Shown: in pieces, positions 31,411 through 38,507 of the stretch
Numbering within the stretch: the stretch's first letter is position 1
Layout of the letters: every line of letters begins with the position of its first letter
Source of the DNA: Akkermansia sp.
GTDB taxonomy: Bacteria; Verrucomicrobiota; Verrucomicrobiia; Verrucomicrobiales; Akkermansiaceae
Length of the DNA: 64,000 nt
Reading direction: 5' to 3'
Assembly (NCBI GenBank): GCA_017477935.1
Contig: JAFVIC010000065.1
Coordinates: 124,001 to 188,000 of the forward strand
Notes under the pieces: model-generated
Database searches by the model: none
The model's input: the letters and a program-made list of their open reading frames with translations, nothing else
Told to the model about the DNA's origin: nothing
Made by a program: the position numbers and the translations under genes

Positions 31411-34400
31411 ATGAACATTGCTAGATTTCTGACAATGGCAACGGCTCTGCTGGCCGGTACCGTGCAGGCACAGTTCGGCGGCTTCGCCTTCGGGGGAGAA
31501 GCTGCACAGCAGTCTGCCACCATGACCGTGAGCAGCAAAGCCAGCGTAAGCAGCTACAAAGCCGGCGAACCTTTCTATGTGGCCCTGCTGGCAGACGTCC
31601 CCCAGCCCTGGCATGCCTACTACCGCAACCCGGCCACTATCGGTGAACCGATGACAGCAACACTGACAGCGCCTGAGGGCTTCACCGTCGAGGGGCCTTA
31701 CTGGTCAGCCCCCGACCGCCACGAGGGTATGCTCGGCGTCGCTTACACGTACAACACGCCCACCGTTGTCTGGAAACTCACCCCTGCCGCCGAGGCTCCT
31801 CAGCAGGCAGAAATTACCGTAAGCACCACGGCTCAAACCTGCTCCGACACCGGTTGTAACCCACCGGAAACAAAGACAGCCACCATCAGCCTGAGTGCCG
31901 GCGATGGTGCCGCAGCCGCTGATTGGAATGCCGAAGAAAACAAAGTGGAGCAACTGGGTGACACTGCAACCACCATCACCGCCACTCAGACGGCAGACAG
32001 CGTGGTGCTGAACTTCACTGCTGAAGGTGAAGTGACGAGCGCCTATTTCTTCTCGGACGACAACTCCATCAACCCCACCGCTGCGCAGGCGCTCGCCAAA
32101 ACCGACAGCGGGTACAGCCTGATCCTGCCCCGCAATGACGGCAAGGATGACATGGCCCCGGTAAAAGACGCCGCGCTCGTCGGCAAGGAATTGCCTGCCC
32201 TGAGCGGCCTGCTCGTATTCGATGGTAAGCTGGCTGTGGTAAAACACACCTTCACCGGTACACCGGCCCCGGCTACCGTAGCTACCGATAATACAGCTGC
32301 TGCTGAAGAAGAAGCCGAAGAAGAAGAGGATGATGATGAGGAGGAAGAAGCAGACGCTGACGAAGAAAGCGAGGAAGATACCGAAGAAGACGAGGCTGAG
32401 GAAGACGAGAGCGCTGACGATGAAGCCCCGGCTGCTGCGGAAACCACATCCGGCGACTACACGGTGGGCGGAGCCCCCTTCGGCAGCAGTCTTTTCGGCG
32501 GTAGTGCCCAACAGCCCGCCACCATGAGCGTAACCGGCAGCGCCAGTGTAAGCAGCTACAAAGCCGGCGAGCCTTTCTATGTTGCCCTGCAGGCCGATAT
32601 TCCCCAGCCCTGGCACGCCTATTTCCGCAACCCGGCCACTGTCGGAGAGCCCATGACCGCCACCATCACAGCGCCTGAAGGTTTCACTGTGGAAGGCCCC
32701 TATTGGTCAGCCCCCGACCGCCACGAAGGCATGCTCGGCGTGGCCTATACCTACAACACCCCCACCATCGTGTGGAAACTCACCCCCACAGCGACAGCAC
32801 CGCAGCAGGCCGACATCACCATGAGCACCACGGCTCAGACCTGCTCCGATACCGGCTGCAACCCGCCCGAGACGAAGACGGCCACTATCAGCCTGAGCAT
32901 CGGCGACGGTTCCGCCGCGGCAGACTGGGCGGGCAAGGAGAGCAAAGTCGAGGTGCTGGGCAGCACCCCCACAACTGCCACCATGACCCAGACAGCAGAC
33001 AGCGTGGTACTGAGCTTCACTGCTGAGGGCGAAGTAAAGAGCGCCTACTTCTTCTCCGACGACAACTCCATCAACCCCACCGCTGCGCAGCCCCTCGCCA
33101 AAACGTCCACCGGTTACAGCCTGACCCTCCCCCGCAATGACGGCAAGGATGACATGGCTCCCGTGAAAGACAAAACCATGGTTGGCAAAGAACTGCCGGC
33201 TCTGAGCGGGCTGCTCGTGTTCGACGGCAAGCTGGCTGCCCTGAATATCAACGCCACGGCAGCAGCCGAAACACCGGCCGCCACACCCGCTGCACCTGCC
33301 GCCACCACCCCGCAGGGTGGAGTACCCGCCGGTATATGGGGTATCTTCGGCTCACTGTTCCTGGGTGGTCTTATCCTCAACCTCATGCCCTGCGTGTTCC
33401 CCGTCATCGGGCTCAAGATTATGAGTTTCGTGGAACTTGGTGGCGGCGAGCGCCGCAAGGTGTTCATGCACTCGCTCATCTTCGTGCTGGGTATACTGGT
33501 ATCGTTCTGGGTACTGGCAGCAGCGCTGATAGTGGTCTCCAACCTCGAAGTGCTGGCAGCCACCCCCTGGACTCAGTGGCTTGAAACCCTGTGGAACGAC
33601 GCCGGCTCCGACACGCGCAGCTGGGCCGTATGGATGCAGAATGACTGGATTGTCTACGCCATCATGCTGCTGCTGCTGGTGCTGGGGCTGAGCATGTTCG
33701 GCCTGTTTGAAATCGGCGTGGGTGCAACCGCTGCCGGTCAGGGCCTGCAGCAGAAGAAGGGCCTGTGGGGCTCCTTCTTCCAGGGCCTGCTGGTCACCGT
33801 AGTGGCCACCCCGTGCAGTGCTCCGTTCCTGGGGGCCGCCATGCCTGCTGCCATGTCCCTGCCGGGGGTATGGATGCTGCTGGCACTCACATTCATGGCT
33901 CTGGGGCTTGCCTTCCCGTATATCATCATGGGGGCATTCCCGGCGCTGGTAAACATCCTGCCCCGCCCCGGCGCCTGGATGGAATCGCTCAAGCAGGGGC
34001 TTTCTTTCCTGCTCTTCGCCGCCGCTGCGTGGATGCTGGATGTCTACCTCGCCTTCCTGCCCGAGGAATACAGCGTTGACCGCCCGTGGATTCTCATGTC
34101 GCTGGTGGTGTTCTGCTCCGCCTTCTGGGTATATGGTCGCTGGTGCCCCATCTACCAGAGCAAGGGCACACGCACCATCGGCGCCATTGTAGCCATTCTG
34201 CTCATTGCGCTGGGTGTGTGGGGCTCCATGCCCCGCCCTGCTACGGGTGCGCCCGCTGCTGCCCCCACCGCTGAGCAGGCCACAGCCGCCGGCTATACTG
34301 TTGCCACAGGCGAGCACCCCACCTGGAACACCTGGAGCAAGGCCCTCATGGATAAAGCCCTCGCTGACGGTCACCCCGTCTACGTAGACTTCACCGCCAA

Positions 34401-34665
34401 GTGGTGCGCCACCTGCCAGATGAACAAGAAGACCGCCTACACGGCTGACGTGTGCGCCCTGTTCGAGAAAGGCAAGGTTGTGCTCATGCGCGCAGATAAA
34501 ACAAGGCCCGATACCGCTATCGATGCCGAAATGCGCCGCCTGAACCGCTCTTCCGTACCGGTGAATGTGCTCTACATGCCGGGTAAAGAGCCGGCTATCA
34601 CCACCGAGCTGCTCACCCCCATCTATATGGACGGATTCCTCAACGAGCAACTCAACCTCAGGTAA
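31411..34665 (+). CDS. DsbD-type thiol:disulfide interchange protein with duplicated N-terminal domain
   Basis: DsbD carries electrons from cytoplasmic thioredoxin through the inner membrane to periplasmic proteins. At 1084 residues this one is about twice the usual size. Order: signal peptide (1-21); alpha domain 1 (about 34-276) with redox pair C144/C149 in TCSDTGCNPPET; acidic linker (about 299-340, mostly Glu/Asp); alpha domain 2 (about 368-610) with C478/C483; about eight membrane helices (645-945) with C661 (MPCVFP) and C802 (TPCSAP); and a C-terminal thioredoxin domain with C999/C1002 (WCATCQ). All redox Cys of a DsbD are kept, and the alpha pair is doubled. Its electron source may be the trxB product 12 kb away. 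Confidence 0.92.
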   Translation: MNIARFLTMATALLAGTVQAQFGGFAFGGEAAQQSATMTVSSKASVSSYKAGEPFYVALLADVPQPWHAYYRNPATIGEPMTATLTAPEGFTVEGPYWSAPDRHEGMLGVAYTYNTPTVVWKLTPAAEAPQQAEITVSTTAQTCSDTGCNPPETKTATISLSAGDGAAAADWNAEENKVEQLGDTATTITATQTADSVVLNFTAEGEVTSAYFFSDDNSINPTAAQALAKTDSGYSLILPRNDGKDDMAPVKDAALVGKELPALSGLLVFDGKLAVVKHTFTGTPAPATVATDNTAAAEEEAEEEEDDDEEEEADADEESEEDTEEDEAEEDESADDEAPAAAETTSGDYTVGGAPFGSSLFGGSAQQPATMSVTGSASVSSYKAGEPFYVALQADIPQPWHAYFRNPATVGEPMTATITAPEGFTVEGPYWSAPDRHEGMLGVAYTYNTPTIVWKLTPTATAPQQADITMSTTAQTCSDTGCNPPETKTATISLSIGDGSAAADWAGKESKVEVLGSTPTTATMTQTADSVVLSFTAEGEVKSAYFFSDDNSINPTAAQPLAKTSTGYSLTLPRNDGKDDMAPVKDKTMVGKELPALSGLLVFDGKLAALNINATAAAETPAATPAAPAATTPQGGVPAGIWGIFGSLFLGGLILNLMPCVFPVIGLKIMSFVELGGGERRKVFMHSLIFVLGILVSFWVLAAALIVVSNLEVLAATPWTQWLETLWNDAGSDTRSWAVWMQNDWIVYAIMLLLLVLGLSMFGLFEIGVGATAAGQGLQQKKGLWGSFFQGLLVTVVATPCSAPFLGAAMPAAMSLPGVWMLLALTFMALGLAFPYIIMGAFPALVNILPRPGAWMESLKQGLSFLLFAAAAWMLDVYLAFLPEEYSVDRPWILMSLVVFCSAFWVYGRWCPIYQSKGTRTIGAIVAILLIALGVWGSMPRPATGAPAAAPTAEQATAAGYTVATGEHPTWNTWSKALMDKALADGHPVYVDFTAKWCATCQMNKKTAYTADVCALFEKGKVVLMRADKTRPDTAIDAEMRRLNRSSVPVNVLYMPGKEPAITTELLTPIYMDGFLNEQLNLR
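31510..32238 (+). repeat. Direct repeat copy 1 (first DsbD alpha domain)
   Basis: This 729-bp stretch aligns without a gap to 32512-33240. By eye about 206 of 243 encoded residues are identical, and the nucleotide match is high with many synonymous changes, so the copies are not recent exact duplicates. Confidence 0.9.
32512..33240 (+). repeat. Direct repeat copy 2 (second DsbD alpha domain)
   Basis: Second copy, offset from the first by exactly 1002 bp (334 codons). The two are separated by the acidic linker (32305-32430) and a short Gly/Phe segment that also occurs before copy 1 (FGG-type). Confidence 0.9.
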
Positions 34666-34687
34666 TATACTGAACAGACAAATTAAG

Positions 34688-34740
34688 AAGGACAAGTTGA
34701 ATGTCATCTGTACATTTCAACTTGTCCTTCGTCATTTTTT
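34688..34740 (+). terminator. Intrinsic terminator after the DsbD-like gene
   Basis: A 17-bp stem with one bulged A (34688-34704 with 34712-34729) is followed shortly by TTTTTT. Confidence 0.8.
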
Positions 34741-34788
34741 AGGCTCTATCACCAACATCAAGTGATTTCCCCCCCAAAAAAAATTACC

Positions 34789-34814
34789 CACTACCTTTTG
34801 AGTAGTGTTTTTTT
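34789..34814. terminator. Second hairpin terminator, possibly bidirectional
   Basis: CACTAC (34789-34794) and GTAGTG (34802-34807) enclose a 7-nt loop; seven T follow on the plus strand, and eight T follow 5 nt beyond the stem on the minus strand. Which transcript it stops is unclear. Confidence 0.55.
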
Positions 34815-34906
34815 GAATTTTAATCATTCGCCAAACGATTTGCCATTCCTGATTAGCTGTGTTGGCGACAGAGATAATATTTTTCCGTGAGATACAAGCA
34901 TTTTAC

Positions 34907-34935
34907 TTGACTTAAACATCCGCACATGCTACACT
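34907..34935 (+). promoter_or_regulatory. Predicted promoter of the nusA-infB-rbfA operon
   Basis: TTGACT (34907-34912) and TACACT (34930-34935) have a 17-bp spacer with TGC before the -10 box. The stretch TTTACTTGACTTAA is shared with the skp promoter. Transcription should begin near 34942, giving a leader of about 90 nt. Confidence 0.65.
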
Positions 34936-34967
34936 CAGCGCGAACAAGTTCCGGTCTTATGAGATTG

Positions 34968-34995
34968 GAGCGGGTCAATGACCCGCTCTTTTTTT
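34968..34995 (+). terminator. Terminator/attenuator in the nusA leader
   Basis: GAGCGGGT (34968-34975) pairs with ACCCGCTC (34981-34988) around loop CAATG, followed by seven T (34989-34995). It lies between the nusA promoter and ATG 35033, so it must be bypassed for nusA expression. A weaker hairpin, CCGGTCT (34951-34957) with AGATTGG (34962-34968), directly precedes it and shares one base, which may allow alternative folding. Confidence 0.75.
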
Positions 34996-35032
34996 ATAGC
35001 CGACTCACAATCAAACTCAAGCAGCAATCACT

Positions 35033-36331
35033 ATGGCAGCCACAGACATCTCAGCACTGATCGATTTCTACGTTCGCGAAAAAGACCTTACCCGCGAGCG
35101 AGTCCTGCAGGCCCTTGAGGCTTCCTTCCTCACCGCCTACTCCAAGATGGTAGATGGTGCAGACCGTATTCACCACATCAAGGCCGTCATTGACCCGCAG
35201 AAGAACAGCGTCAAGATTAAAGCACGCATGGAGATTGTTGCCGATGAAGATTTCAGCGACCCCTTCAACGAAGTGAAACTCTCTGAGGCGCAAGCCATGG
35301 CCGCCCGAAGCGGCAAGACTGTTGAGATTGGTCAGCGCATCAGCATGAACATCACCCCCAAGGATTTCGGCCGTATCGCCGTGCAGACAGCCCGCCAGAC
35401 CATGCAGCAGCGTATTCGCAAAGCTGAGCAGGAAATGCTGGCCGACGCCTTCAAGGACCGTATCGGTGAGCTGGTGACCGGCACCGTGCGCCGCTATGAC
35501 AAGGGTGACGTGATTGTCGAGGTTGATAAGTTCGAAGGTCTGATGCCGCTGCGCCAGCGCATACCCGGCGAAGAGTACAACCCCGGCGACAAACTGCGCT
35601 TCTATGTGGTTGAGGTGCGCGATGGTGCCCGCGGACACGAGCTCATCCTCTCCCGCAGCCACCCGAACCTGGTGCGCCGTCTGTTCGAGAGCGAGGTAAT
35701 GGAAATCTACGAACACACGGTTGAGATTGTCAACATCGTACGCGAAGCCGGCTACCGTACCAAGATGGTGGTGAAGAGCGATGACCCGAACATCGACCCC
35801 ATCGGTGCCTGTGTGGGTATGCGTGGTGCCCGCGTGAAGAATGTGGTGAACGAACTTAACCGCGAGAAGGTCGACATACTGGAATACTCCGAAGACAAGG
35901 CTGCCATGGTGCAGGAATCCCTGGCGCCCATCGACCCGGTCAAGATTGATGTGGATGAAGCCGCTCGCGTGGTGACCGTCTATGTGGCGGATGATAAGGC
36001 CGCTGCGAAGGCCAAGGGCCGCCGCGGTCAGAATGTGCGCCTGACGGCACGCCTCATCTCCGGCCCGAGCGACCGTTGGGATGTACGCGTGGAGCCCTAC
36101 GACAACATGACCCGCGCCAAGAGCCTGGCCAACGAGGCTGCCAACGAAGCCGCCGGTGAGCTGGTGACCGTACTGGGTGTAACCCCGGAACTGGCAGGCG
36201 ATATGATTGCCAACGGCTTTACCACCCTTCAGGTTATTGCCAACTACGTACAGCCTGAGGATTTGGTTGACGCCCTGGGAATCAGCGAGGAACTGGCCTT
36301 TGCCATTGTCGACAAAGCCAAAAATGCCTGA
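35033..36331 (+). CDS. nusA: Transcription termination/antitermination factor NusA
   Basis: NusA binds RNA polymerase and RNA and modulates pausing, termination and antitermination. The 432-residue protein has the N-terminal polymerase-binding domain (1-125), an S1 domain (about 130-200: GELVTGTVRRYDKGDVIVEVD), KH domains (IGACVGMRGARVKNVVNEL) and a C-terminal helix-hairpin-helix stretch (about 375-432). It is the first gene of the operon; the usual upstream rimP is absent. The leader carries a strong terminator, suggesting attenuation. Confidence 0.96.
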   Translation: MAATDISALIDFYVREKDLTRERVLQALEASFLTAYSKMVDGADRIHHIKAVIDPQKNSVKIKARMEIVADEDFSDPFNEVKLSEAQAMAARSGKTVEIGQRISMNITPKDFGRIAVQTARQTMQQRIRKAEQEMLADAFKDRIGELVTGTVRRYDKGDVIVEVDKFEGLMPLRQRIPGEEYNPGDKLRFYVVEVRDGARGHELILSRSHPNLVRRLFESEVMEIYEHTVEIVNIVREAGYRTKMVVKSDDPNIDPIGACVGMRGARVKNVVNELNREKVDILEYSEDKAAMVQESLAPIDPVKIDVDEAARVVTVYVADDKAAAKAKGRRGQNVRLTARLISGPSDRWDVRVEPYDNMTRAKSLANEAANEAAGELVTVLGVTPELAGDMIANGFTTLQVIANYVQPEDLVDALGISEELAFAIVDKAKNA

Positions 36332-36392
36332 TAAAGACATGAAGAAAGGCAGCATGAGCTGCCACAGCTAACACACGATTTTTCAGATACAC

Positions 36393-38507
36393 ATGAGCGA
36401 AAGGAACAGCAAGAAACCCGAGGTGCTTGACCTGCTTGGCAGCACCAGAAAAAAGAAAGCAGCAGCGCCTGCTCCCGCCCCGGCCGAGAAGGCTGCGGCC
36501 CCTGCACCGGCACCTCGCAACTCCAACAGTGCACAGCCCGCCCGTAAAGCCGCGCTCGATTTGCTCAGCCCCCAGCGCAAGAAAGCGCCGGCGACTGCCA
36601 AACCCCAGCCCGCCCCCAAGGCTCAACCCGCCCCTGCACCAGTCAAGAAGGAAACCCCACCCCCCGCAGCTCCTGCGCCTGCCCCGAAGCCTCAGCCGGT
36701 GGCAGAGGCTCCGACCGGTGACAAAACCATCAACGTCAAACCGCCGGTATCAGTTGCCGAGTTGGCAGCTCAGATGAACCTGAAACCCTTCAAGCTTATT
36801 GCCGAGTTGCTGCCCATGGGCGTATTTGCCAACCCCGGCACAACGCTCGACAGCGACCAGGTGGCAGCCTTGTGCGAGAAGCACGGCTTTGCCTTCGAAC
36901 GCGTGAAGCGCGAGAAAGGCGCCGGCGTGAAAGCCCCGGTGGAGGTCGTGAAAGAGCCCGAACCCGTAGCCGTTGAAGAAGAACCCGAAGATTCACTGAA
37001 GGTCCGCACCCCCATCATCACCGTAATGGGTCATGTAGACCACGGCAAGACCTCCCTGCTCGACTACATCCGCCGCACCAAGGTTGTAGCCGGTGAGGCC
37101 GGTGGCATCACCCAGCACATCGGCGCCTACTCTGTGGAGCACGCCGGTAACAAGCTGACCTTCATCGACACCCCCGGTCACGCCATCTTCACTGAAATGC
37201 GTGCCCGCGGTGCCGACGTGACCGATATCGTGGTACTGGTGGTAGCTGCCAATGACGGCATCATGCCCCAGACCCGCGAGGCTATCACCCACGCCAAGGC
37301 CGCCGGCAAGACAGTTATCGTGGCCGTCAACAAGTGCGACCTGCCCGCTGCAGACCCTGTGCGTGTGCGCACCCAGCTGATGGAAGAGGGGCTCATGCCC
37401 ACCGACTTCGGCGGCGATATCGAGTGCGTGGATATCTCGGCTCACACCGGTGCCGGTATTGATGACCTGCTCGACCTGCTCTGTCTGCAGGCCGAAGTTC
37501 TGGAGTTGAAGGCCAACCCCCGCGCCAACTGCCGCGCCTCTATCATCGAGGCCCGCATGGAACAGGGTAAGGGCAGTTCCGCCACCGTTATCGTGCAGAG
37601 CGGTACTCTCAAGGTCGGCATGCCGTTCATCTGCGGCCCTTATTCCGGCAAAATCAAGACGCTCTTCAACGACCAGGGCAAATCCATTAAGAAAGTTACC
37701 CCCGGCATGCCCGCCGAGGTATCCGGGTTCCTGCAGACCCCGAATGTGGGCGATGAACTCGTGGAAATGAAGAACGAGCGCGAGGCCCGTAGACTTGCCG
37801 AGGAACGCCAGGAAGAGCTGCGCCAGCAACGCCTGAGTGCCCCCCGCCGCTCCCGCATGGAGGACATTCTGGCCATGATGGGTGACGGCAACCAGAAGGC
37901 CGTGCTGAAACTCTACCTGAAGGGTGACGTGCAGGGCTCGGTGGAGGCTATTAAGAAAGCGATTCTCGATATCGAGAGCGAGAAGGTCGAATGCCAGTTT
38001 ATCGGTGCGGCAGCCGGTCCTATTTCCGAAAGCGACGTATTGCTTGCCTCTTCGTCCGATGCGGTGATTCTGGGCTTCAACGTGAAGGTTGAGAGCAACG
38101 CCGTGAAGGCCGTGAAGCGCGAAGGCGTGCAGGTCAAGATTTACTCCATTGTATATGAGTTGATTGACCAGGTGAAGGATGCCATGCTCGGTCTGCTTGA
38201 GCCTGAGACTCGCGAGACCATTCTGGGTCATGCCGAGATTAAGCAGGTGTTCAAGTTGAACAAAGGCCGCGCCGCCGGGTCTTATGTATCGGACGGCAAG
38301 ATGCTGCGTAAGGCCGAGGCTCGCGTGCTGCGTGATGGCCAGGTGGTCTTCGATGGCAAGATGTCGACCCTGCGCCGCTTCCAGGATGAAGTGGAAGAAG
38401 TCAAAGCCGGTCTCGAATGTGGTATCCGCCTGGCGGACTACGATGATTACGAGGAAGGCGATGTGATTGAGTGCTACTCACTCGAAAAGATTAAACAGAC
38501 ACTCTGA
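36393..38507 (+). CDS. infB: Translation initiation factor IF-2
   Basis: IF-2 is the GTPase that brings initiator tRNA to the 30S subunit. The 704-residue protein has an Ala/Pro/Lys-rich disordered N-terminus (1-115), an IF2-N domain (about 118-170: [22 protein letters not shown]), the G domain with [17 protein letters not shown] and NKCD, then domains II-IV. It starts 61 nt after nusA; the gap contains a GGCAGC/GCTGCC hairpin (36346-36361) without a T-tract. In a genome with leaderless mRNAs, IF-2 handling of 70S initiation is of particular relevance (inference). Confidence 0.97.

Follow-up and report, generated by a model that had tools for sequence, protein, structure and literature searches.

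The window, a 64,000-nucleotide stretch of a 2.44 Mb metagenome-assembled Akkermansia genome, contains an operon in which nusA is followed by infB and then by rbfA. Among named records, close relatives of this genome are animal-gut Akkermansia genomes, A. glycaniphila being more distant. The region from the operon promoter to infB contains the following features.

34907–34935, + strand: sigma-70 type nusA promoter, TTGACT-N17-TACACT; the −35 and −10 boxes are prominent in the genus alignment
34947–34956, + strand: 5′ strand of hairpin P1, AGTTCCGGTC, invariant; positions 34948–34952 (GUUCC) can also pair with 34967–34971 (GGAGC)
34951–34968, + strand: hairpin P1, CCGGUCU-UAUG-AGAUUGG, extendable to 10 pairs (34948–34971)
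34968–34988, + strand: terminator hairpin, GAGCGGGTC-AAT-GACCCGCTC in DNA and GAGCGGGUC-AAU-GACCCGCUC in RNA, kept in the order and the phylum
34989–34995, + strand: T-tract of seven T, the expected release point of a leader RNA of ~54 nt
34996–35008, + strand: right strand of pairing P3, from the minimum-energy fold and coevolution in the genus
35033–36331, + strand: nusA, 432 aa, ATG at 35033, first gene of nusA-infB-rbfA, with NusA_N, S1 and KH domains
36393–38507, + strand: infB (IF2), same operon, downstream of nusA

Farther 5′ of nusA, a gene for a DsbD-type protein (31411–34665) encodes two DsbD N-terminal domains with a long Asp/Glu run between them. Directly past this gene, a 14-bp perfect inverted repeat (AAGGACAAGTTGAA / TTCAACTTGTCCTT, 34688–34729) followed by a T-run is probably its terminator, and a further hairpin with seven T lies at 34789–34814.

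The promoter at 34907–34935 matches the consensus at 9 of 12 positions, has a TG preceding the −10 box and is the sole promoter-like site on the + strand between 33500 and 36500. A score of at least 9/12 was reached by 93% of the genus leaders versus 6% of shuffles. The terminator scored 21.6, a value reached by none of 3,000 dinucleotide shuffles of 34900–35033 (shuffle maximum, 14.3). For the 55-nt leader the folding energy is −21.2 kcal/mol (shuffles, −10.8 ± 2.4; 0/200 equally stable), and the stem motif GRGCGGGT-N-CCCGCTC occurs as a single copy in the 2.44 Mb genome. The original prediction, made from the DNA of the window, had given the same positions for the promoter, for the hairpin with its seven T and for the start of nusA. 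Its transcript of about 54 nt agrees with our own estimate of a start at ~34942, 7 nt past the −10 box, from which the end of the T-tract is reached after 54 nt; the second hairpin that it had noted just upstream, sharing one base with the terminator, corresponds to P1, and the common base is G34968. An intrinsic terminator thus stands between the operon promoter and nusA, as expected of an attenuator autoregulated by NusA. The end of its stem is 44 nt from the nusA ATG, group medians being 38–50 nt. No evident Shine-Dalgarno-like sequence precedes the nusA start codon in the window (34996–35032) or in the genus leaders (L001–L116).

Conservation of the hairpin in relatives, proposed with the original prediction as a check, was examined in 96 distinct nusA leaders from the order. 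An automatic search found a hairpin-plus-T signal at the same place in all 96, and 95 of these were convincing, the exception (L041) having a weak or different hairpin. The terminator is also present in families of the order whose NusA is only 43–49% identical. The same stem occurs in 58 leaders of the window's genus, where the near-invariant blocks are the −35 box, the −10 box, AGTTCCGGTC and the terminator, while the flanks, at 0.3–0.5 identity, are near background; since the pattern used to pick the alignment rows includes the motif, the motif values are partly selected, whereas those of promoter and flanks are not. The T-tract of other Akkermansiaceae genera (L119–L137) is mostly just TTTT, followed by a conserved GCGTCT. 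These shorter tracts, weaker than those of the window's genus, would fit a terminator that requires a factor.

Elsewhere in the phylum, 60 genomes from 40 other families were sampled. The terminator was found by score in about 50 of them, an approximate figure that includes a few other hairpins (for example L201 and L209), and two more genomes carry a weak GTGGG form; the genomes examined from families f11, f15, f21, f23, f33–f35 and f40 have no such terminator. A scan of 144 genomes of the phylum with RAGYGGG-N3-10-CCCRCTYTTTT returned 76 matches, 60 of which, in 60 genomes, precede nusA by at most 250 nt and share its strand. At stem pair 4 the genus has C-G where other groups have T-A or T-G, a compensating change, and one family has the stem variant GTGGAAAC...GTTTCCAC. 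Together, these comparisons strongly support the predicted attenuation of nusA, as judged by conservation in the order and the phylum.

A conserved sequence with its own promoter and terminator could also be an independent small RNA gene of 54 nt, nusA being transcribed from elsewhere. We regard this as highly improbable: the element always precedes nusA in the same orientation, at a distance of no more than ~150 nt, and the scan of 33500–36500 revealed no later promoter-like site. In several families, moreover, the gap between T-tract and start codon is a mere 12–20 nt, into which a promoter cannot fit, so that nusA must there be transcribed through the terminator. Two other candidates were discarded. 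A boxA or nut antitermination site would call for a conserved GCTCTTT boxA past the stem; CGCTCTTT is present in the window, but only part of the order retains it, other genera carrying CCCACTC-TTTT or CCCGCTT-TTTT. A short leader-encoded reading frame would begin with an ATG (34960) that is not conserved in relatives.

The original prediction had also described an operon without rimP, which proved right and holds throughout the phylum. With two domain models that were positive in 10 of 14 control genomes, RimP_N was detected in 0 of the 39 genomes searched from the order and in 0 of 144 from the phylum, and the RimP C-terminal domain in none of the same 144. The leader therefore persists without RimP. 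In terms of sequence, the promoter and terminator, their order, their conservation and linkage to nusA, and the absence of rimP are shown. On the same searches, maturation of the 30S subunit in Verrucomicrobiota seems to proceed without RimP.

Leaders of related layout are known elsewhere. The rimP-leader is a short conserved terminator, G-rich then C-rich, in the 5′ UTR of rimP-nusA-infB, 4–130 nt before the first gene, for which NusA was proposed as regulator (Naville & Gautheret 2010, PMC2965389; RF01770); NusA feedback has long been proposed in E. coli (PMC2965389), whose site, GGGCTTTAGGCCC-T7, is of similar layout to ours. In B. subtilis, the Bacillus precedent named in the original prediction and a real one, stimulation of termination by NusA in its own leader was shown experimentally (review PMC12288461). 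In Streptococcus agalactiae, RNA-seq of gbs0413–gbs0418 revealed two products of a single start upstream of rimP-nusA-infB-rbfA, a terminated RNA of 31 nt and a long transcript, and NusA feedback was suggested (PMC4448216).

Like the B. subtilis leader, that of the window has an intrinsic terminator between the promoter and the nusA operon, and we propose the same feedback, although it is demonstrated there and inferred here, and the make-up of the operon differs. The S. agalactiae leader differs in being shorter and in preceding rimP. With the rimP-leader, the window terminator shares a position within 4–130 nt of the first start codon; the first gene, however, is rimP there and nusA here, rimP being undetected. 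The rimP-leader core is GGGc...gCCC, as against GGGu...aCCC plus T7 in the window and GGGCC...GGCCC in other classes; the stem here is GAGYGGG...CCCRCTC, and the Akkermansia version has P1 and P3 in addition. Rfam gave no credible match at the site, RF01770 included, and in relatives RF01770 gave only sub-threshold matches, none at nusA; this model is narrow, exceeding its cut-off in just 1 of 14 control genomes. The leader resembles the rimP-leader in its working and is most likely its Verrucomicrobiota counterpart. We stop short of counting it as a full member because rimP is absent, RF01770 is unmatched and the core in the window is off by one base pair.

A search of a library with few subscription papers brought up no account of a Verrucomicrobiota nusA leader. 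The class of mechanism is known; its phylum-wide distribution without rimP and the extra structure we did not find described. The rimP-leader paper did not settle which of the two proteins, RimP or NusA, acts as regulator, and a phylum in which rimP is undetectable is a natural test: that the attenuator has been kept there, directly before nusA, argues that it can do without RimP.

We consider it probable that the nusA-infB-rbfA leader is a transcription attenuator, with NusA most likely raising termination in a negative feedback. Polymerase would initiate at ~34942 and form P1, then the terminator hairpin; a fraction of complexes would stop at 34995, and nusA, infB and rbfA would be expressed only by those reading through. 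By slowing polymerase and aiding hairpin closure, NusA would increase termination and so reduce its own operon when abundant. Partial termination in vivo is expected from what is established about terminators, this one being near-ideal; NusA is the most likely effector by analogy with the leaders above. The hairpin with its seven T looks strong unaided, and a dependence on NusA is not visible in the sequence. Our literature search returned neither transcriptomes nor in vitro results from any member of the Verrucomicrobiota, and no Akkermansia transcript ends. The phylum, Akkermansia included, has seen little work on transcription, and the leader, short and easy to handle experimentally, would allow the effect of NusA on termination to be measured.

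The near-consensus promoter of the genus could also belong to an attenuator that senses nothing and passes a constant fraction of transcripts, a steady dose of NusA and IF2 perhaps being sufficient. This seems decidedly unlikely, as a weaker promoter would achieve the same, a constant loss of transcripts hardly explains conservation across the phylum, and NusA generally acts at terminators, so that insensitivity to it would be unusual.

Within the genus, NusA-responsive attenuation may have a further, kinetic component. The sequence of P1 is invariant across the genus, and the pattern of P1 plus stem base occurs once per genome in 56 of 76 genus genomes (reversed control, 0); in the A. muciniphila-like clade the terminator is kept and the upstream hairpin is different. 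Beyond the hairpin originally noted, P1 can lengthen across the terminator base: GGAGC (34967–34971), the base of the terminator 5′ arm, has both GUUCC in P1 and GCUCU (34985–34989) as potential partners. In the genus consensus, GGRGC, the A or G lies exactly opposite the U of both partners, and hence both pairings are kept. Pairing in the genus leaders was assessed with RNAalifold. In 56 leaders, fully extended P1 with a shortened terminator lay only 1.3–2.6 kcal/mol above the best partition, in which P1 had, with a single exception, 6 or 7 pairs. When the 5′ strand was permuted 20,000 times, all nine pairs arose by chance in 50 cases (0.25%). In other families, a test for an antiterminator complementary to the stem base fell short of significance (mean z −0.1 to −0.8, cross-species P≥0.06), and a competing P1 is for this reason put forward as a possibility in the genus. 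There, slow closure of the terminator by branch migration is plausible and could tie termination to the length of polymerase pausing, hence to NusA; this kinetic role of P1 would be an addition to the attenuator itself. L155–L179 (family f9 and its neighbours) have a conserved UCACUU(U) 10–25 nt before the terminator, complementary to the basal AAGUG/AGGUG, which is possibly an independently evolved competing strand and was not significant in the test.

The invariance of P1 could also signal specific recognition, in an attenuator that responds through P1 (AGUUCCGGUC...GAUUGG) not to NusA but to NusG, to Rho, to a ribosomal protein or to a small molecule; intrinsic termination is indeed aided by NusG as well (PMC8060035). 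We find this unlikely. The part kept across the phylum is the terminator, not P1, the position of the leader is always before nusA, and the double pairing of GGRGC accounts for much of the invariance with no ligand needed.

Read-through RNA would have one more structure available. In the window, the right strand of P3 pairs with the region of 34952–34961; in the genus, the bases following CCGGUC pair with those directly past the T-tract. P3 encloses the terminator, can form in read-through RNA only and is mutually exclusive with P1. In the genus, the energy of P3 with its own partner averaged −8.87 versus −8.00 when partners were swapped between species (z=−3.95, 0/2,000 permutations), against z between −1.5 and +1.7 for eight control windows; a further test had a similar outcome. 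Thinned sets of 14–29 leaders gave z from −1.6 to −3.4, and other genera gave no signal. Because the permutation leaves some relatedness in, we take this as moderate evidence from the alignments that the two sides of P3 coevolve in the genus. A full three-strand switch, in which GUUCC and GCUCU compete for GGRGC as a timer of pausing and NusA, and P3 then displaces P1 after read-through and fixes a different mRNA fold, is conceivable though doubtful. If it operates, the P3 fold of the read-through mRNA would perhaps serve stability or processing.
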